A stretch of 64,000 nucleotides of DNA from Candidatus Abyssobacteria bacterium SURF_5. GTDB taxonomy: Bacteria > Abyssobacteria > SURF-5. Positions within the stretch are counted from its first letter, which is position 1. Every line of letters starts with the position of its first letter. The stretch spans positions 1 through 64,000 of the forward strand of contig QZKU01000143.1 of assembly GCA_003598085.1 (NCBI GenBank), read 5' to 3'. Of the stretch, positions 36,550-47,820 are shown one piece after another. Below the pieces are notes generated by a model. The model saw only the letters and a list, made by a program, of their open reading frames with translations, was not told the origin of the DNA and made no database searches. Made by a program: the position numbers and the translations under genes.

Positions 36550-38235
36550 CTATTGAAAATAGAATTCCAACCATTCGCTCCAACAGCGGGGCTGTGTGTC
36601 CGGCGAGATACGCACCCTCCACGGATTCCGGACACCGAGCGCAAGCCATATCTCCTTCGAATACGGCCCGAAATCGCGCTGATTTCCGTAATTGAGGAAT
36701 GAACCGGTGAGGTGATGAATTCCGTCGCCTATGTCATATTCGATGATGTACGTCATCACAGGACTTCCGGTCCATGAGGCGCGCACCATCCCGTGCCTCT
36801 CGTTGAAGCGAAGAACCACTCCGTCATACGGAAAAATGAGTTGCGGGCAAAGCCCTTCGCTTCCGCTGTCCACCAAAGCAGATTGGTGCGCGGCAAGCGC
36901 GTTCCGGCGGAGAACGTTTTCCCGCTTCCACTCGTCTAAGAGCGTCAGAAGAATATTGGCAGGCTCGGGGTTTTTGTCGTAGACGTTTCGGTGCTCCTTG
37001 ATGTCTATCAGCAAATCAAAGAGTTGATAGTTTTTTCCTGCCGGGCCTTCTGTCTCGATCAGCTTCCAGGAGTCGGTCCGCACGCATCTCAACCGCGTCT
37101 CCTCCATTTCGCCGCTCGCCTGGTATCCGCCGTAAATAGTCTCGGCGAAGGCAGGAATACTCGACTCGCTTCGCTTGCCGGCATCGAAAATGAGGGGCGC
37201 CAGAGAGCGTCCTTGTATCCCCGACGGCATCGGGATTCCCGTCAGCTCGAGAAGCGTCGGCATGATATCTATCTGCTGCACTTGCTCCCGTATTTGCACT
37301 CCCTCCGGAAGATAACCGGACAAAGACATGATCAGCGGGATTCGCAGCACCTCGTCATACACGGTCGCTGAACGCGATGTCGATGCGTGCCCCACAAAAC
37401 CATGATCAAACAGCTCCTCTCCATGGTCCGCCGTAATGACAAGCAGCGTCTTCTCAAGCAGGCCGTATTTGTGCAGGCGCGCGCACAGACGGCCCACAAA
37501 GAAATCCAACTCGATCACTTCTCCGTCGTAGAGATCGTGTATGATGGCCCGATCCGATTGCTGGAACTTGACCGTGTCGACAAATACGCTGGCGGAATCT
37601 GAAAGAACGGCCTTCACGCCCGGTGACACCTGATTTTCATTCGGATGCCCCGAAAGAAAAACTGAGTGAGTGCTTTCCCGCGGCCTGTACGGAAGGTGTA
37701 CGTTTCGGTAGTGATACCAGAGGAAGAACTTGGAGTCATGATTCTCGTCGATCCAGCGAAAGATCTCCTCGCCATCCTCTTCAGAGAAATACCGTTCTTC
37801 GACCGGCCCAATGCGTATGCCCAAAAATTCCGGCAACGTGAGAACAAAACAGATGTTCGGAACTTCATATTCGGCCTCCGCAAAACAGTCGAAAATGGTC
37901 GTAATCTCGGAGTCCAGCAGCTGCCCCCGCTTGTCAACCTGATGTACCGGCGGCTGAAGAGAGGTCAAAACGGAAATCAGACCGGGTACGGTCCATGCCG
38001 ATTGACTGAACACCCGGCGAAAAAGCACTCCCCGCTCGGCAAGCGCATCGATATTCGGACTCGTTGCTCTGTTGTGTCCATAACAGCTCAAATGATCGGC
38101 ACGAAGCGAGTCCACAGTCAGAAGAATGACGTTGATATCCTCAGGCGCCCGTCTGGGGGATGGTCGCTCCGTCACGAGAAAGAGAACGCCGGCTAAAACA
38201 GCAAAAATAAATATCTTTCCTGTACTTCTTCCCAT
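36550..38235 (-). CDS. Alkaline-phosphatase-superfamily membrane-anchored hydrolase or phosphotransferase (sulfatase-like, Thr nucleophile)
   Basis: A 561-residue protein with an N-terminal membrane anchor (KIFIFAVLAGVLFLV). Metal ligands match the sulfatase/phosphatase fold: LLTVDSLRADHLSCYG, ITADHGEELFDHG and a His in VGHAS. The position where sulfatases carry Cys/Ser for formylglycine reads SAWTVPGLISVLTS, so the aligned nucleophile is Thr, as in LtaS, EptA and phosphoglycerol transferases. I therefore reject arylsulfatase. The last 100 residues form a beta domain (IIEYDIGDGIHHLTGSF) resembling a fibronectin or lectin-like module. It begins 1 base after the VanZ-like gene and is co-transcribed. 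A phosphotransferase acting on cell-surface glycan or lipid is plausible. Confidence 0.85.
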   Translation of the reverse strand: MGRSTGKIFIFAVLAGVLFLVTERPSPRRAPEDINVILLTVDSLRADHLSCYGHNRATSPNIDALAERGVLFRRVFSQSAWTVPGLISVLTSLQPPVHQVDKRGQLLDSEITTIFDCFAEAEYEVPNICFVLTLPEFLGIRIGPVEERYFSEEDGEEIFRWIDENHDSKFFLWYHYRNVHLPYRPRESTHSVFLSGHPNENQVSPGVKAVLSDSASVFVDTVKFQQSDRAIIHDLYDGEVIELDFFVGRLCARLHKYGLLEKTLLVITADHGEELFDHGFVGHASTSRSATVYDEVLRIPLIMSLSGYLPEGVQIREQVQQIDIMPTLLELTGIPMPSGIQGRSLAPLIFDAGKRSESSIPAFAETIYGGYQASGEMEETRLRCVRTDSWKLIETEGPAGKNYQLFDLLIDIKEHRNVYDKNPEPANILLTLLDEWKRENVLRRNALAAHQSALVDSGSEGLCPQLIFPYDGVVLRFNERHGMVRASWTGSPVMTYIIEYDIGDGIHHLTGSFLNYGNQRDFGPYSKEIWLALGVRNPWRVRISPDTQPRCWSEWLEFYFQ

Positions 38236-38236
38236 A

Positions 38237-38824
38237 TTATTTCAGCCGCTCCAAAGGCATCTTCCCACGGCTCCGTTTCGTTAACAACGCAATCAGCGCC
38301 AGCCCGAAAGCGGATGCAAGACCATTGGTGACGATGTCTCGTGTTTCAAATGTGCGGTTCGGAAGAAAATATTGTATGCTTTCATCGATAGACCCGAAAA
38401 CCAGTCCGAAAAGGAATGCGAGTGCGTAGGAAAACCTGGTCGAAAAATCAAAAGAGAAAGCTCTCAACGCAAGGAAAACCAGAGCTCCGTACTCCACAAG
38501 GTGCAATTTTTCCGCCGGAAATTTGCAGTAGTATTTCAATACGTAACCGTAGCCCATTGACAGCGCCGCCAATGCAATGATCCTGAAAGGGCCGTAGTCT
38601 CTCCATGAACCAACCATGATATAGAAAAAAAAGAGCAGCAGCGCAACAGAAAACATATAAGGGAAATTGCTGAAGCCCGCCCCAAAAGTAAGAACCGCTC
38701 TCTCCCACACATACGGCGTCAGCGGCAGCGAAATCAATATCACCAACTGCATCAAAATTACGAAACCCCAGGCTCGCAGCCTCAGAGCCTGTTGTGTTTC
38801 CGCCGTGACATGCACTTCCGACAC
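38237..38824 (-). CDS. VanZ-like membrane protein
   Basis: A 195-residue polytopic protein with five or six hydrophobic segments. The VanZ family core is seen in EKLHLVEYGALVFLALRAF and FGSIDESIQYFLPNRTFETRDIVTNGLASAFGL, with the conserved Glu/Asp and DxxxN residues. The best known member confers low-level teicoplanin resistance, but most relatives are uncharacterised envelope proteins. Start is GTG 38824, preceded by AAGGA, only 1 base after the stop of the solute-binding-protein/GH123-like gene. It sits between that gene and the phosphatase-superfamily gene, so all three probably act on the cell surface. Confidence 0.86.
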   Translation of the reverse strand: MSEVHVTAETQQALRLRAWGFVILMQLVILISLPLTPYVWERAVLTFGAGFSNFPYMFSVALLLFFFYIMVGSWRDYGPFRIIALAALSMGYGYVLKYYCKFPAEKLHLVEYGALVFLALRAFSFDFSTRFSYALAFLFGLVFGSIDESIQYFLPNRTFETRDIVTNGLASAFGLALIALLTKRSRGKMPLERLK

Positions 38825-38825
38825 A

Positions 38826-41822
38826 TCAGTCCTTTTCGATTACCCTGATTATATTCTTAGTCATCGCTCCATTCTTGAACACGATGGAAAAGCTGTTGAC
38901 TCCCTCCTCAAGCGGAAGGTTCATCGAGAAGGCGCCGCTCGAGGCTGCCGATAAAGAATGGGAATTGATCTCGATCGCGCAGTCTGGTTCCGTAACCCCA
39001 TAAATGCGAACTGTCGCGGCATCAGTGTACCGCCTCTCCTCCGGATCCGTCAATACCAGCGCGTACGGACGGTCTATCATGGACGCGATCTCCGTGATTA
39101 CTTCGCTGCGCGCCTGTTCGATTTTGCCGGGCTCGCGCGCAAACGACATGAGCGGCAATATACCTGCAGGATCGGTATGCAGCGAATCCCGGGAAACGAG
39201 GCGCCGGCACAGTTCTCCGATTCTTATTGTTGCCACATCTCCCAGATATTCGGCGGAAAGTATCTTCTGCACCGTCTCAATGTTTCGGCGCAGCAAGAAT
39301 AGGTATTCCATATCCTCGAGCCCCTCGCGAAGCAGTTCCAATCGTATCGAGGGCGCCGGTCTCCCCCCCTGCGAATAAATCAGCACCCCCTCTCCGTTTC
39401 CAAAAAGCGGAATAAACGCTTCATCGAACGGCTGCGTCCAATTGGCTGCTTCCCAATGCAGAAAACCATCGATTCCATACAACTGCTGCATCCACGGGAT
39501 TACCCTGAAGGCCGAGGGATCATCTTCTATATGAAGTGTCGGGAACGGCTTTACCGGCCCCGCTGTGTACCACCATACCGCTTCTTGCGGCAATCGCCCG
39601 TTCACCCGGGCAAGATATTCCGATCGATCGGAAAAAAGATGTGGTATCCCAACCGGCAAAAATGAGATGTGAATGCCCCAGATATCGACCGAGCCCACCA
39701 GCATCTCATCAGGCATACATGTGACCAGGAACTTTGGGCGCTTCCCGCGAGAATGGATTTCTCGACCCGTTTCCACGACCGCAGAATATTGATGGTACGT
39801 CGGCTCATCGATAAAGTAGACAAATATCTTGTCCAGCCACCCTTCTTTCTCCCCCAACTCCACCAGAGGAGCATACCATTCGTTGACCGGCGGCAGAGGA
39901 AACCGGCACGCGGAGACGCGCTCGTCCCTTAAGTACTCGCCAATCCTGTCCGAGTTCAGCGACACTGGGGGCTGGTATGGCGTCAGCCTTCGCTCAACAA
40001 GAAACCAGTAAAATGAATCGAGCACCTCCCGACCATCCGCCGAATTTTTATCCACTCCCAGATGACGGGCGACCAGATCGTAATTCAGGCCGACTACGGC
40101 TGGCTGTGACGGCGAAGCCGGAATCTCCCACGGGAGCACTTGAATTTTTATGGGAATCCGACACCATGCCTTCTCCGGATTCTCCAGAATTATCGCCAGC
40201 GTCCGCTCTCCAGCGGGAACACCTCTTCCCACAAAAATCTCCACCCAAAGCCTGACAGGTGCACCGGGTGAAAGATCAAATGAATCAACCGGCTCCAAGA
40301 TATTGGGATATGCCCCCGCCTCGTTCGCAACCAGCGGCAGCGGCACGGTAGTGTCCCTTTCTCCATATACCTCAATGCGAAAATGTGAAGCATCTTCATT
40401 TCGGGGTGGCGATTCAACTTTCCACGTGACCCGTTCCGCCTCCTTCTCACTGCTGATCAGGAGTTGGAAAGACTCGTTTTCATTTCGGGCACACGTGACG
40501 GTGACGGGCAGATTCTTCAACCCCCTTCGTTCGCCAGCGAAAATGCGCCGAGTGCTTTCCGCCCACGACACTGATATTGCGTCTGAAGCAGCACCTTTGC
40601 CATGATTTTCCGCGTCAAATGAGCGCGTTATCTCCCGCAGCGCCTCTTCCGGCGACAGCAGCCCTGCATCCAGTTGGGCTACAGCCCGCGAAATCTTTGA
40701 AAATGCGCCACCGCCCAAAGACAGATCCAGCGGTTTCCCCGCCCGGGCCGATACCAGAACCTGTCGATATAATGGGTCATCTTCTTCGATTTCCATTCCC
40801 CCCGCAGTGCTTGTGAAGGGATTGACGTAGAAACATTTTTCCTGGAACATCCGATAGTACGACGGATTGAAGAATAATTCCAGGAAGGCCGATGCAGCTT
40901 GCAGATTGTCGGTCCGACACAGCACAAAAACCAGGCTGTCGGACAAAGCGGTCACACGGTTTTCCGAGACCGAAGGCATCGGCGCAATGACGAGTGGAAT
41001 TTCAGTCGAATCCTGCATTGCCGAAACCAGGTTGGCATCTTCGATTTGGAAGAGGACTTTTCTATCCGTCACTTCAAGAAAATTTGGATCCCAGAACTTA
41101 TAGTACGGAGGAAAAACATTTTGCTTTCGGAATTTGTGCAGCAGTTCCAGGATGTCAGCGAGGACTTCATCTTGCTTTTCTGCCCCCGAAAGCCCTTTCT
41201 GGACAGCGAGAATCGAGAATATCGAATCAAGAGAACGAGTGTTTAGCGTCCATATTTCTTCGGCGCCCGCAGGCCTGTGCTTGGCAACGTGCTTCTGCAA
41301 TTGCAGGATGTCATCCCAATCCGACGGCAGCTCGGCCCCAATTTCCGCCAGCAAGGCGGGATTGCAGATAAAAACATACGGGTTCAGAGACGCAGGGATA
41401 CCGTATAGAAGGTCTCTATACCGCACGTATTCCCTGGCGGGGGGAACAAGAACTTTATTTTTCAATATTCCGTGATTCTCGAGGAAGCGGTCAACCGGAA
41501 AAATGATGCCCTTATCCGCCAGCGCCGGGAGCGCCTCGCGCTCGACCAGCGCAAGGTGCGGCCGTTCCTCCGGCTTGATCGAACGAAGCTTCTCCGCTAC
41601 CGCTCCTCGCGCAGGACCAAAAACCACATCCTCGACTCTTGCAGTCTGATCTCGGCAATTGATCTCTTTTATTATTGATTGCAGAATCTTCCGCCTCTGG
41701 CCGGTCTCCTGGTGCCAGAGAAGAAGACGTTCCTCAGAAGGTGCGCCGTCAGCATGGACAAATGCGCATGCGAAGACGGCGGCTGCAAGGGCGCCGAAGG
41801 CGAGACGAGTAAATTTGAGCAC
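38826..41822 (-). CDS. Fusion of an ABC-type solute-binding protein with a DUF4091/GH123-like domain and C-terminal Ig-like domain
   Basis: A 998-residue exported protein. Signal peptide MLKFTRLAFGALAAAVFACA begins at GTG 41822; a TTG at 41849 is also in frame. Residues about 35-415 read as an extracellular solute-binding protein family 1 (LLLWHQETGQRRKILQSI, then DLLYGIPASLNPYVFICNPALL, SLVFVLCRTDNLQAASAFLE). About 435-900 look like DUF4091/GH123-type: a beta region with VTCARNENESFQLLIS, then a barrel with IFVYFIDEPTYHQYSAV near residue 670, whose adjacent Asp-Glu matches the GH123 catalytic pair, LHWEAANWTQPFDEAFIPLFGNGEGVLIYS and LREGLEDMEYLFLLRR. The final 80 residues are a bacterial Ig-like beta domain. 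No permease or ATPase genes are near, so the binding domain probably serves the enzyme, not transport. Confidence 0.82.
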   Translation of the reverse strand: MLKFTRLAFGALAAAVFACAFVHADGAPSEERLLLWHQETGQRRKILQSIIKEINCRDQTARVEDVVFGPARGAVAEKLRSIKPEERPHLALVEREALPALADKGIIFPVDRFLENHGILKNKVLVPPAREYVRYRDLLYGIPASLNPYVFICNPALLAEIGAELPSDWDDILQLQKHVAKHRPAGAEEIWTLNTRSLDSIFSILAVQKGLSGAEKQDEVLADILELLHKFRKQNVFPPYYKFWDPNFLEVTDRKVLFQIEDANLVSAMQDSTEIPLVIAPMPSVSENRVTALSDSLVFVLCRTDNLQAASAFLELFFNPSYYRMFQEKCFYVNPFTSTAGGMEIEEDDPLYRQVLVSARAGKPLDLSLGGGAFSKISRAVAQLDAGLLSPEEALREITRSFDAENHGKGAASDAISVSWAESTRRIFAGERRGLKNLPVTVTCARNENESFQLLISSEKEAERVTWKVESPPRNEDASHFRIEVYGERDTTVPLPLVANEAGAYPNILEPVDSFDLSPGAPVRLWVEIFVGRGVPAGERTLAIILENPEKAWCRIPIKIQVLPWEIPASPSQPAVVGLNYDLVARHLGVDKNSADGREVLDSFYWFLVERRLTPYQPPVSLNSDRIGEYLRDERVSACRFPLPPVNEWYAPLVELGEKEGWLDKIFVYFIDEPTYHQYSAVVETGREIHSRGKRPKFLVTCMPDEMLVGSVDIWGIHISFLPVGIPHLFSDRSEYLARVNGRLPQEAVWWYTAGPVKPFPTLHIEDDPSAFRVIPWMQQLYGIDGFLHWEAANWTQPFDEAFIPLFGNGEGVLIYSQGGRPAPSIRLELLREGLEDMEYLFLLRRNIETVQKILSAEYLGDVATIRIGELCRRLVSRDSLHTDPAGILPLMSFAREPGKIEQARSEVITEIASMIDRPYALVLTDPEERRYTDAATVRIYGVTEPDCAIEINSHSLSAASSGAFSMNLPLEEGVNSFSIVFKNGAMTKNIIRVIEKD

Positions 41823-41878
41823 GGCCGTTCCACTGGCAAAAGCCGCCAAAGAGGCGGCGCCCGAGAATTATTAATGCA

Positions 41879-42397
41879 TTACTGTTCTCGTGCGAGAACC
41901 CGATCAAAGACTTGCTTGTCAGCCTCTTTGAAAAGAGCAAAGATAATCTTTTGTATTGTCGAATCGTTTTGCTGGAGATGTTGTCGCGCCAAACCAATCA
42001 TTATTTCCGCGCAGCGCTCAATCGGGAAACCGCCAATCCCCGTCCCGATCGCAGGAAATGCAATGGATCGAACGCCGGCTTCCTCTCCCCTGAGCAGGCT
42101 GTTCCTGACGGAGTCGCGCAATGATCGTTCGGAAACCGGTTCATCCCCCATGCTGGCGGCATGTATCACGTATTTTGCGGGAAGCCTGCCGGCGCCGGTA
42201 ATCGCCGCTTCCCCTATCTCGATGCGGCCGATTTTATCGCATTCCTCCTGAATGGTGGGACCCCCTTTTGAACGTATCGCGCCGGCTACACCGGCTCCGA
42301 GGATCAAATGATTATTGGCGGCGTTAACGATGGCATCCACCTCGAGTTCGGTGATATCGCCGCGCACAATGGAAATCTCACCACTTCCTGCTTTCAT
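41879..42397 (-). CDS. Macro-domain (ADP-ribose phosphatase/hydrolase) protein
   Basis: A 172-residue stand-alone macro domain that binds ADP-ribose or its derivatives. The motifs are clear: IVRGDITELEVDAIVNAANN, LILGAGVAGAIRSKGG (ligand loop), IGEAAITGAGRLPAKYVIHAASMG and IAFPAIGTGIGGFPIERCAEI. GGAGGTG precedes ATG 42397. It lies 167 bases downstream (on the minus strand) of the MTH938-like gene and just before the fusion protein gene. Close relatives hydrolyse ADP-ribose 1''-phosphate, a by-product of some RNA-repair pathways, O-acetyl-ADP-ribose or mono-ADP-ribosylation. The RtcB/archease genes nearby make an RNA-end role worth testing, though RtcB itself does not make ADP-ribose phosphate. 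Confidence 0.93.
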   Translation of the reverse strand: MKAGSGEISIVRGDITELEVDAIVNAANNHLILGAGVAGAIRSKGGPTIQEECDKIGRIEIGEAAITGAGRLPAKYVIHAASMGDEPVSERSLRDSVRNSLLRGEEAGVRSIAFPAIGTGIGGFPIERCAEIMIGLARQHLQQNDSTIQKIIFALFKEADKQVFDRVLAREQ

Positions 42398-42564
42398 TTG
42401 GCTTCACCTCCATGGGATCGATGCCGCCTTCAACCCGATTTTCCGGAGCGGGTCTTAAAAGCATTTTGCGTCCGCGCTTCGACCGCAATCTCGATCCTTT
42501 GAAGAGCGTCCCTCAATCTTGTGGAAAATGCCTTCTCCAGCATCAATCCTTTTGAGATACCGTT

Positions 42565-42912
42565 CTAGCAGGTCAGGTGAAGCGCGGCGATAACCTTTTT
42601 CCCCTGTTCGACCAGCCTGTTAAATTCCTCGCATGCTTTTTTGGTGGGAGCGGCAAGAACCCTCACGTTCAATTGCTTCAGCGCCTCGGTGACGCGAGGG
42701 TCTATTTGCATTCGTCCGGGATCCCCCTGTCCAATCACCAAAATCTCCGGAGGGTCTGCAAGGACATCCGGAATATCCTCTGTTTGAAGCCTGTGGCCTT
42801 CCTTACGCCACCACTCTTCTTGGATTTTGTCCGGATAGATGATCAGGTCAGACGCATATGAGCGCCCGCCGATGGTGACGGAACCAAAGGAATACCGATC
42901 AATAAGAGCCAT
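42565..42912 (-). CDS. MTH938-like (NDUFAF3/DUF498) protein
   Basis: A 115-residue member of the MTH938 family: IDRYSFGSVTIGGRSYASDLIIYPDKI, PEILVIGQGDPGRM and the C-terminal VRVLAAPTKKACEEFNRLVEQGKKVIAALHLTC. The fold is known from archaeal and eukaryotic (NDUFAF3) members; function in bacteria is unknown. GGAAAGGGAGAG precedes ATG 42912. It starts 33 bases after RtcB on the same strand and is probably in the same transcript. Confidence 0.9.
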   Translation of the reverse strand: MALIDRYSFGSVTIGGRSYASDLIIYPDKIQEEWWRKEGHRLQTEDIPDVLADPPEILVIGQGDPGRMQIDPRVTEALKQLNVRVLAAPTKKACEEFNRLVEQGKKVIAALHLTC

Positions 42913-42945
42913 AGTCTCTCCCTTTCCGGTGTAAACCCGGCGTAA

Positions 42946-44394
42946 TCATCCTTTGATTACGCCGAGGGGGCGCAACTTTGCCACGCGCAGGCTTATTCCC
43001 GCCTGATGCATCACGTTCACAACGGCGTTCACATCTTTGTAGGCCTCGGAAACTTCCTCGGCGAGTGTGCTTCTGCCATGGGCCATCACAATAATGTTCT
43101 TCTCTTCCAATTCTTTCTTGATCGAGCGTCCCTTCGTCGCCTTGATTGCGGCGGAGCGGCTCATCACCCGGCCGGCGCCGTGACAGGTCGACCCGAACGT
43201 CTCCTCCATCGCCGCATTGGTGCCCACGCACAGGTACGATGCCCTCCCCATGTCGCCCGGAATCAGCACCGGCTGACCAACGTGCCGGTAATCGGCTGGG
43301 ATATGGGGATGCGCTGGTGGAAAAGCGCGCGTCGCCCCCTTTCGATGAACCCACAACATGCGCTCCCGCCCGTCTACCGTATGCTTCTCATACTTGGCAA
43401 TGTTGTGACACACATCATAGATCAGGCGCATGCCTAAATCGCGTGGATTCATGTTCAATGTGCGTTCAAATGCGGCCCGCGCCAGATGCATGATTACCTG
43501 CCGGTTTGCCCACGCATAATTTGCCGCAGCCGCCATGGCCGAAATGTAGTCCGCCCCCTCCTGCGATTCCGCCGGGGCGCAGGCAAGCTGCCTGTCCGGC
43601 AGCTCGATGTGATACTTCTGGATCGCCCGCGCCATCACTTTCAAATAATCGTCGCAGATTTGGTGGCCGAATCCGCGTGACCCGCAATGAACCATGACCG
43701 TGATCGAATCCTTCTCGATACCGAACACGCGGGCGGCCTCGGGATCATATACTTCCTCGACTTTTTCAATCTCGAGAAAATGATTGCCCGAACCAAGCGT
43801 TCCCACTTGAGCGGCTCCGCGTTCCACGGCATGGTCACTCACCTTGTCCGGATCAGCCCCTTGCAGGCACCCCTTCTCCTCGGTATGTTCGAGATCGGCG
43901 GCGTCGCCGTATCCATTTTCAACCGCCCACTTCGCTCCTTTCACAAACAGCTTTCTCTGCTCGTTTCGGGTCAGCTTCTCGATGCCGCCCTTGGCGCCGA
44001 CGCCCGTCGGGATCGCCTGGAACAGCGCCATCACCAAATCGCGAAGGCGCGGCTGGATATCCTGCACCATTAAGTTAGTCCGGATCAGACGGACTCCGCA
44101 ATTTATATCATAACCCACTCCGCCGGGTGAGATGACGCCGCCCTCTGCCGGGTCCATGGCCGCAACTCCCCCAATCGGGAATCCATAGCCCCAATGAATA
44201 TCCGGCATCGCCAGCGAATATCTCACGATTCCCGGAAGCGTGGCCACATTGGCGGCTTGCTCGGGACTCTTGTCCTTCTGAATATCGCGCATCAGGCCCT
44301 CGTCAGCGTAAATCCTGGCGGGAACCCTCATCTGGCCGGTCTTGGCGATCTCGTAAATGAAATCGCCGATTTTTTTCATCGCCACTTGCGGCAT
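42946..44394 (-). CDS. rtcB: RNA-splicing/repair ligase RtcB
   Basis: Joins RNA 2',3'-cyclic phosphate (or 3'-phosphate) to 5'-OH ends with GTP and Mn. The 482-residue protein has the Mn-site segments GGVGYDINCGVRLIRTNL, LGSGNHFLEIEKV and VMVHCGSRGFGHQ, and the guanylylated His in STCHGAGRVMSRSAA. The N-terminal GIVRYSLAMPDIHWGYGFPIGGVAAMD is typical of the archaeal/bacterial form that works with archease. ATG 44394 or the internal ATG 44379 (MKKIGD, common start of the family) could be used. Archease is 13 bases upstream and the pair are expected to be co-produced. Confidence 0.97.
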   Translation of the reverse strand: MPQVAMKKIGDFIYEIAKTGQMRVPARIYADEGLMRDIQKDKSPEQAANVATLPGIVRYSLAMPDIHWGYGFPIGGVAAMDPAEGGVISPGGVGYDINCGVRLIRTNLMVQDIQPRLRDLVMALFQAIPTGVGAKGGIEKLTRNEQRKLFVKGAKWAVENGYGDAADLEHTEEKGCLQGADPDKVSDHAVERGAAQVGTLGSGNHFLEIEKVEEVYDPEAARVFGIEKDSITVMVHCGSRGFGHQICDDYLKVMARAIQKYHIELPDRQLACAPAESQEGADYISAMAAAANYAWANRQVIMHLARAAFERTLNMNPRDLGMRLIYDVCHNIAKYEKHTVDGRERMLWVHRKGATRAFPPAHPHIPADYRHVGQPVLIPGDMGRASYLCVGTNAAMEETFGSTCHGAGRVMSRSAAIKATKGRSIKKELEEKNIIVMAHGRSTLAEEVSEAYKDVNAVVNVMHQAGISLRVAKLRPLGVIKG

Positions 44395-44407
44395 TTCTCT
44401 TACTCAC

Positions 44408-44854
44408 CTAAATGTCAAAAATCACCCGCGCGAGCCACTGCCCTTCTCTTCTGGCAACCTCGAGTTCGTGATATGTGGCCGCTTTGATGCTTTGTCCTAT
44501 CGGATGCCTTTTCTGATCGTATGGCTCGCCCTTGATCGAAGCTTTCATCTTGTTATCCCTGACGGAGACCACTTCAAACCTGCTGAAGAACATCCCGCTC
44601 ACCTCCGCCCGGAAAAGCAGTTCGTTCAGCCACGTCACCAGCAGCTCCTCGAGTGACTCCGCTTCCAGGCTGAGCTTCGCTTCTTCTTCTGGTTTCACCT
44701 TTCTCACATCGACCATCAGATCAAACATCGCACATCCGGCAAGCGCAAATAACTCTTCAAGCGTCTTCCCTCTTACCGAAATGCCGGTATCGGCGGTGTG
44801 CTCAATCACTTCGTACTTTTTCTTGATGTTTTCAGGCCCGGCGACTGCTTTCAC
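44408..44854 (-). CDS. Archease (RtcB cofactor protein)
   Basis: A 148-residue archease, which helps RtcB bind GTP and turn over and broadens its nucleotide use. The family pattern is complete: YEVIEHTADTGISVRGKTLEELFALAGCAMFDLMVD near the N-terminus (with the metal-binding Asp/His) and the C-terminal IKAATYHELEVARREGQW and ARVIFDI (metal-binding Asp). Start is GTG 44854, following GGTGGGATT. It lies 21 bases after the zinc-ribbon membrane protein and 13 before rtcB. Confidence 0.95.
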   Translation of the reverse strand: MKAVAGPENIKKKYEVIEHTADTGISVRGKTLEELFALAGCAMFDLMVDVRKVKPEEEAKLSLEAESLEELLVTWLNELLFRAEVSGMFFSRFEVVSVRDNKMKASIKGEPYDQKRHPIGQSIKAATYHELEVARREGQWLARVIFDI

Positions 44855-46466: not shown

Positions 46467-46495
46467 TTGGCTTTTTCCCCAACGTGATGTATAAT
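46467..46495 (+). promoter_or_regulatory. Sigma-70-like promoter for the HEAT-repeat gene
   Basis: TTGGCT (46467-46472), a 17-base spacer and a perfect TATAAT (46490-46495). Predicted start near 46502, about 56 bases before the ATG at 46558, which has GGGGGGAA in front. Confidence 0.65.
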
Positions 46496-46557
46496 TGAGG
46501 GGACCAAGAGGGGTTAAGTGGGCGTTCCGGCTGCCTGCTTTGTGCCGCAGGGGGGAA

Positions 46558-47820
46558 ATGAAGAACAGTTTGAAAACGTTCATCGCAGGCCTTACCATAT
46601 TGGTGGCGCCGGTTACGATTCTGGCGGAGGCCGCTTTTTTCGAGTCCCCCGCTTCACAACGAGAAATCCTTTTAGCCCAGAAGGAAGCTAACTCCTTAAT
46701 CCTTGTCGATACGTCCTCATCGACTTCAGACCTTGTCCAGGCACTGCAGCAATCGACACTGAAGTATCAACGCCGATATGCCGCTCAGCTTCTCGGAGAA
46801 CGAAAGGAACCGGGAACTGCCCCATATCTTGTGCAGGCACTTGATGATCCCGAGGATATAGTTCAAAAGGCCGCTGCGGAAGCCTTGGTTAACCAGCGCG
46901 ATAAGAGCATCTTTCCCCAACTCATCGACACTCTGAGCGCACCCCGTCCTTCGGCGCGAGAATATTCCGCCTACGTTCTGGGGAAATTGGCGAATAAGGG
47001 CGACACTGCTGCTATCCAGGCACTGGAGACTGCCGCAGGCGATGAGAAAAGCAATGTCCGCGTCGAGGTGATTTATGCCCTTTATGAAATAGGATCGCCC
47101 AGCAGCAAAGGAATTTTTGTCAACGGATTAAATGACGAAGAAGCAAGAATCCGCAGTTATTGTGCAAATGCGCTCGGAAGCTTGAAAACGGCCGGCGCCG
47201 GAGCCGAACTTTCCGCCGCGCTTGATCGGGAGACCGATGAGAGTGTCAGGCGGACGATCATTTCCGCAATGGGGAAAATCGGTGGAAGCTCTTCCGCGAA
47301 AACGCTGGCCCAGGCCGTAACCAATGAGAATGCTTCCCTGCGGGGCGACATCGCCGACGCGCTCGGCGAAATAAAGACGCCCGAGGCGATTCGAGCACTC
47401 GTCGAACTGCTTGCCGATTCAAATCCCACGGTTCGGGCGCGAGCGGCTTCGGCGTTGGCGAATGCAAGAGACCCTTCATCGGCCGGAGCGCTTGCGAACG
47501 CGCTGAAAGATCGCTCGCCACTCGTTCGACGAGCGGCCTCCCGCGCGCTTATTTATATAGCTGATTCGACGACCATCAAGGAACTGGTGGACGCTTTGGG
47601 CGATTCGGATTCTGAAGTCGCCGAAAATGCAAAAGAAGCCCTAATTCACGTTAATGATCTCAACGCCGTGCATTCGCTTATTGACGCGCTCGACTCGGGC
47701 AACCCCAACAAACAGACACGTGCTTTGATGGTACTCGAAGAAATCACCCATCGGCCGTACGGGTCGGACGTCGTCAAATGGGTTCAGTGGTACGAGGAAA
47801 ACTTCAAGACCAGCGAATAG
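46558..47820 (+). CDS. Exported HEAT-repeat (PBS-lyase-like) protein
   Basis: A 420-residue protein with a signal peptide (FIAGLTILVAPVTILAEAAF) and about nine to ten HEAT repeats from residue 75 to 395. Typical repeat lines are YAAQLLGERKEPGTAPYLVQAL, EYSAYVLGKLANKGDTAAIQAL, SALANARDPSSAGALANAL and SRALIYIADSTTIKELVDAL, each ending near a DP or D/E loop. Start ATG 46558 follows CAGGGGGGAA; a longer frame from 46495 begins on the -10 box and is excluded. HEAT arrays serve as protein-protein scaffolds. It is 25 bases upstream of a histidine kinase gene, so it may scaffold or sense for that kinase across the membrane, which is inference. Confidence 0.9.
   Translation: MKNSLKTFIAGLTILVAPVTILAEAAFFESPASQREILLAQKEANSLILVDTSSSTSDLVQALQQSTLKYQRRYAAQLLGERKEPGTAPYLVQALDDPEDIVQKAAAEALVNQRDKSIFPQLIDTLSAPRPSAREYSAYVLGKLANKGDTAAIQALETAAGDEKSNVRVEVIYALYEIGSPSSKGIFVNGLNDEEARIRSYCANALGSLKTAGAGAELSAALDRETDESVRRTIISAMGKIGGSSSAKTLAQAVTNENASLRGDIADALGEIKTPEAIRALVELLADSNPTVRARAASALANARDPSSAGALANALKDRSPLVRRAASRALIYIADSTTIKELVDALGDSDSEVAENAKEALIHVNDLNAVHSLIDALDSGNPNKQTRALMVLEEITHRPYGSDVVKWVQWYEENFKTSE

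Follow-up and report, generated by a model that had tools for sequence, protein, structure and literature searches.

The window analyzed here, a 64,000-nucleotide stretch of DNA from 'Candidatus Abyssobacteria bacterium SURF_5', encodes a protein in which a complete solute-binding protein (SBP) domain is fused to a GH123-type catalytic unit. This is a real domain combination, conserved within its lineage and absent from the loci surveyed elsewhere, which need not mean absence elsewhere. With a probability of roughly 0.6, we read the product as a modular beta-N-acetylhexosaminidase that is secreted and probably cleaves beta-GalNAc linkages, with the SBP serving as its glycan-binding module.

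Reading frame and domain architecture

The gene forms an intact open reading frame on the minus strand, uninterrupted across 998 codons from a GTG at 41822, and an alternative TTG start at 41849 would extend the product to 1007 residues. A preliminary description had proposed a fusion of an SBP with a GH123/DUF4091-like hydrolase, and this fusion is borne out by the intact frame, the Pfam domains, and orthologs of full length. An assembly chimera, or a frameshift joining two genes, is excluded by these full-length orthologs in two other genera. The domain order, as read from sequence, runs from a signal peptide through the SBP, a beta-sandwich, a catalytic barrel, and a DUF4091-type segment to a helical stretch and a Glucodextran_B-like domain; we infer that the protein is secreted. 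An AlphaFold2 prediction with three sequences (pLDDT 42.6, pTM 0.33) gave a model too poor for use. The features of the gene are as follows:

38826..41822, minus strand: whole fusion gene, 998 aa (open reading frame; full-length orthologs in two other genera)
41751..41822, minus strand: probable Sec signal peptide, residues 1-24 (MLKFTRLAFGALAAAVFACAFVHA), read off the sequence
40602..41750, minus strand: solute-binding protein domain, residues 25-407 (Pfam SBP_bac_8 in all three orthologs; profile match to 4r9f, both lobes)
40128..40580, minus strand: beta-sandwich of the GH123 unit, residues about 415-565 (by alignment with the N-terminal domains of 8k2f, 8k2h, and relatives)
39423..40127, minus strand: catalytic barrel, residues about 566-800 (Pfam GH123_cat; alignment to 8k2h)
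39804..39809, minus strand: codons of the catalytic pair Asp672-Glu673 (FIDEP), invariant in all 11 aligned relatives
39273..39422, minus strand: DUF4091-type segment, residues about 801-850, with Y816 and R827 (end of the GH123_cat match; conserved residues)
38862..39059, minus strand: Glucodextran_B-like domain, residues 922-987 (Pfam, 27.0 bits, exactly at the cut-off of 27; 28.6 and 24.4 bits in the two orthologs)

Phyletic distribution of the fusion

All three genomes examined from the phylum 'Ca. Abyssobacteria' (uncultivated deep-subsurface bacteria, placed under Hydrogenedentota in the NCBI taxonomy), each representing one genus, encode the full-length fusion. The other two are 'Candidatus Abyssobacteria bacterium SURF_17' and a genome labeled 'Candidatus Poribacteria', and their orthologs are 44-46% identical to the SURF_5 protein and free of internal stops. 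For the latter genome (record L033), both gene order and protein identity point to Abyssobacteria, and its label looks wrong.

Split SBP and GH models were applied to the loci retrieved elsewhere, which numbered no more than 30 per search and included 1500 bases of flanking sequence. Apart from the three orthologs, no single reading frame combining an SBP with GH123 was recovered: not from 386 genomes spanning the domain, each scored for its two best candidates, and not from 68 and 195 genomes of two GH123-bearing phyla or 3 genomes of another. Within the limits of this survey, in which both domains occur together only in the three orthologs, a widespread fusion is rejected. Searches of genome contigs with the fusion protein as a single sequence, and of viral contigs with the alignment, returned no match. 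Reading frames of 900-1200 residues in the phylum of genome G278 were also considered as candidate fusions and set aside, the first 400 residues of those checked being without an SBP match by Pfam or the split models.

The GH123-type catalytic unit

Pfam GH123_cat matches residues 658-843 (2.1e-12; 47.5 bits against a cut-off of 23.1) and scores above the cut-off in both orthologs as well. A profile built from the three orthologs matches the solved GH123-type enzymes 8k2h, 8k2f, and 8k2j across beta-sandwich and barrel alike; two of these are beta-N-acetylgalactosaminidases and one, 8k2h, is a beta-N-acetylhexosaminidase. As a single sequence, the SURF_5 protein is closest among solved enzymes to the same three (8k2h, 8k2j, 8k2f), with GH123 sensu stricto and 8k2l lying farther away. 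The initial assignment of residues ~435-900 to a DUF4091/GH123-type hydrolase thus stands as to enzyme class, but it had overlooked the beta-sandwich and the Glucodextran_B-like domain. The adjacent Asp-Glu pair that it had located in FIDEP corresponds to D672-E673 and recurs in 11 of 11 aligned proteins.

Nine residues are conserved throughout all DUF4091 enzyme groups (PMC11087588), and eight of them are retained here (W526, D672, E673, Y752, G786, W790, Y816, and R827). The remaining position, Asp95 of NgaLy, lies in the beta-sandwich and forms a bond with the DUF4091 segment; it is Asn507 in all three orthologs and Asp in the eight other aligned relatives. This is a mild change at a structural residue, and, from the aligned positions, the active site looks intact.

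With the enzymes of DUF4091 Groups 1-3 (8k2f, 8k2h, 8k2j; PMC11087588), the fusion shares the beta-sandwich, the barrel with its Asp-Glu pair, the DUF4091 segment, and eight of the nine residues. It differs from them in its additional N-terminal SBP and C-terminal Glucodextran_B-like domain, in carrying Asn507 for the conserved Asp, in the shorter first half of its barrel, and in that its activity is predicted. The GH123 sensu stricto enzymes (BvGH123, 5l7r; CpNga123, 5fqe) have the fold family and the catalytic pair in common with the fusion but match it far more weakly in sequence (2.4e-4 and 0.2, respectively), and the known members are pocket-shaped and release monosaccharides (PMC11087588). 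Between the first barrel strand and the catalytic Asp there are 94 residues in the fusion, against 113-303 in the aligned relatives. Cleft-shaped sites have been associated with oligosaccharide release and pocket-shaped sites with monosaccharide release (PMC11087588). Judging from these lengths, a barrel whose first half is so short is unlikely to have loops that block the site and probably has an open cleft, which would allow oligosaccharide release or cutting inside the chain.

The catalytic unit as a whole (about 415-850, comprising sandwich, barrel, and DUF4091-type segment) is predicted to be a GH123-type retaining beta-N-acetylhexosaminidase, in which Asp672 would hold the N-acetyl group of the substrate, Glu673 would act as acid/base, and the reaction would pass through an oxazolinium intermediate. 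Beta-GalNAc linkages appear to be the likeliest target; GalNAc is not certain, because the nearby GH123 enzymes are mostly uncharacterized and the solved relative 8k2h is a broader beta-N-acetylhexosaminidase.

The solute-binding domain and its transport context

At the N-terminal end, Pfam SBP_bac_8 matches residues 91-346 (5.7e-10; 39.9 bits against a gathering cut-off of 27) and exceeds the cut-off in all three orthologs. The three-ortholog profile aligns with the solved SBP 4r9f over profile positions 14-419 (2.4e-19), and the matches to solved SBPs over the first 419 positions span a complete domain with both lobes, in line with the earlier reading of the first ~415 residues as an ABC-type sugar-binding protein. 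A galacto-N-biose SBP (2z8d) is among the matches, but these include SBPs for many other sugars, and no ligand was drawn from it. The complete, end-to-end-matched domain is shared with the family-1-type carbohydrate SBPs (SBP_bac_1/SBP_bac_8; 4r9f, 7bvt, 2z8d). Those are normally free proteins or lipoproteins, or form part of permease fusions such as the one on SURF_5 contig C101, whereas here the domain is fused to a hydrolase and has no linked permease.

Identity among the orthologs amounts to 36-42% in the SBP, 35-46% in the neighboring beta-sandwich, and 57-62% in the barrel. Since the SBP is about as conserved as the sandwich that adjoins it, it is not decaying. Its lower conservation relative to the barrel could be taken to mean that the SBP is a passenger or mere spacer that has lost ligand binding. 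We consider this very unlikely for a domain that is complete and uninterrupted in three genera, retains conserved stretches such as KFWDPNF, and is conserved to the same degree as the structurally required beta-sandwich.

No BPD_transp_1 (permease) match was found on C143, the contig that carries the fusion, in agreement with the earlier remark that no permease lies nearby. Elsewhere in the genome, two carbohydrate-type ABC permease sets were found on contigs C142 and C101, each with its own SBP, which in the C101 set is fused to a permease; a third permease set, on C99, is preceded by a protein resembling the phosphate-binding PstS. Given that the contig has no permease and that the carbohydrate permeases found have SBPs of their own, delivery to a permease by the fusion SBP is less likely. 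It is conceivable that the SBP still works in transport, picking up the released sugar for a permease whose gene lies elsewhere, which would link cutting to uptake. Although the intact two-lobed domain and the two carbohydrate-type sets would suit such a role, the SBP is tethered to a 590-residue enzyme, and together with the transport context above this renders the idea improbable.

At the C101 locus (L138:1547-3871, plus strand), a second permease comes after the fusion of the SBP with an ABC permease. Each of the three Abyssobacteria genomes has such a fusion, which gives the lineage two kinds of fused SBP.

Modules exchanged ahead of the GH123 unit

GH123 relatives carry a range of other modules at the position of the SBP, including LamG (L040, L041), CBM_4_9 (L045), a GDSL lipase (L043), beta-propeller repeats (L079), or some 400 residues without an assigned domain. 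The LamG, CBM_4_9, and GDSL proteins follow the same plan of accessory module, sandwich, and barrel as the fusion, and L045 likewise has a Glucodextran_B-like match; where these proteins have a lectin-like, CBM, or esterase domain as accessory module, the fusion has an SBP. The SBP is a further occupant of a module-exchange position, several occupants of which are carbohydrate-binding.

Four GH123 proteins of one phylum (L075, L076, L078, L097) have in common an N-terminal stretch of ~400 residues with the motif EGFGVGSFYVPNRR...GPNIKGL and no Pfam match, which constitutes an undescribed accessory domain of GH123 enzymes.

Under our preferred reading of a secreted modular hexosaminidase, the N-terminal SBP would be a former ABC-transport binding protein that now acts as a glycan-binding module in the position of LamG or a CBM, and it would probably bind substrate or product without handing it to a permease. 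That the protein captures and cuts a glycan, perhaps in the periplasm or on the surface as suggested in the preliminary description, is the most economical reading and fits the modules found at the same position in relatives, while being a prediction from sequence. We give little credence to a more elaborate version, in which the SBP clamp would open and close on the glycan in mechanical coupling with the barrel, so that a transporter binding protein would now act as a processivity or allosteric module of the glycosidase.

Gene neighborhood of the fusion

Two further genes follow the fusion on the same strand:

38237..38824, minus strand: VanZ-like membrane protein, one base past the fusion gene (Pfam VanZ 6.4e-08)
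36550..38235, minus strand: sulfatase-fold protein with Thr82 at the nucleophile position (Pfam Sulfatase 4.6e-36; orthologs 63-64% identical)

The three genes are separated by one-base gaps in SURF_5 and, in unchanged order, joined by short (4-base) overlaps in the other two genomes. Of the VanZ-like and phosphotransferase-like envelope genes initially described after the fusion, the first is supported by its Pfam match and the order is correct; the second is a sulfatase-fold protein with Thr in place of Cys/Ser. Where the formylglycine motif would read C/S-x-P-x-R, this protein has T82-V-P-G-L, and W-T-x-P-G is invariant in the three orthologs. Sulfatases need Cys or Ser at this position, and with the replacement by Thr the protein probably lacks sulfatase function; phosphotransferases of the sulfatase fold have Thr as nucleophile. 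The protein also has a single hydrophobic stretch in its N-terminal part and is extended at the C terminus by about 100 residues that have no Pfam match.

VanZ-like and sulfatase-fold neighbors are not typical of a glycan-degradation locus and count against our preferred reading. They bring in its main rival, which would alter the purpose of the enzyme and leave its chemistry unchanged: the cassette might trim or modify an amino-sugar surface polymer of the cell itself, with the SBP holding the polymer or a precursor. The tight coupling of the three genes in all three genomes, a cassette without a transporter gene, and the Thr of the sulfatase-fold enzyme, as in phosphotransferases of the fold, are consistent with such envelope remodeling. 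We nevertheless regard it as unlikely, since no polymer-synthesis genes were seen beside the cassette and the role of VanZ-like proteins is poorly known.

Upstream of the fusion, all three loci carry RtcB and macro-domain genes, so that the gene surroundings are conserved. At 41879-44854 (minus strand), Archease, RtcB RNA ligase, DUF498, and macro-domain genes stand in series, an order kept in the orthologous loci, and form an RNA-repair-type cluster. Farther along, at 46495-47820 (plus strand), lies a repeat protein of 441 residues that reads as HEAT-type, with similar proteins near the orthologous loci L032 and L033.

Implications

SBP domains are known from free-standing binding proteins, from fusions to permeases, and from sensor kinases. 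In the open-licence papers searched, we found no report of an SBP as an accessory module of a glycoside hydrolase, and, as far as those papers show, the SBP-GH123 combination is unremarked. If the SBP binds the substrate, the known carbohydrate-binding modules would gain a switchable two-lobed clamp, and a testable role could be assigned to a protein that this deep-subsurface lineage, itself known from metagenomes, has conserved.
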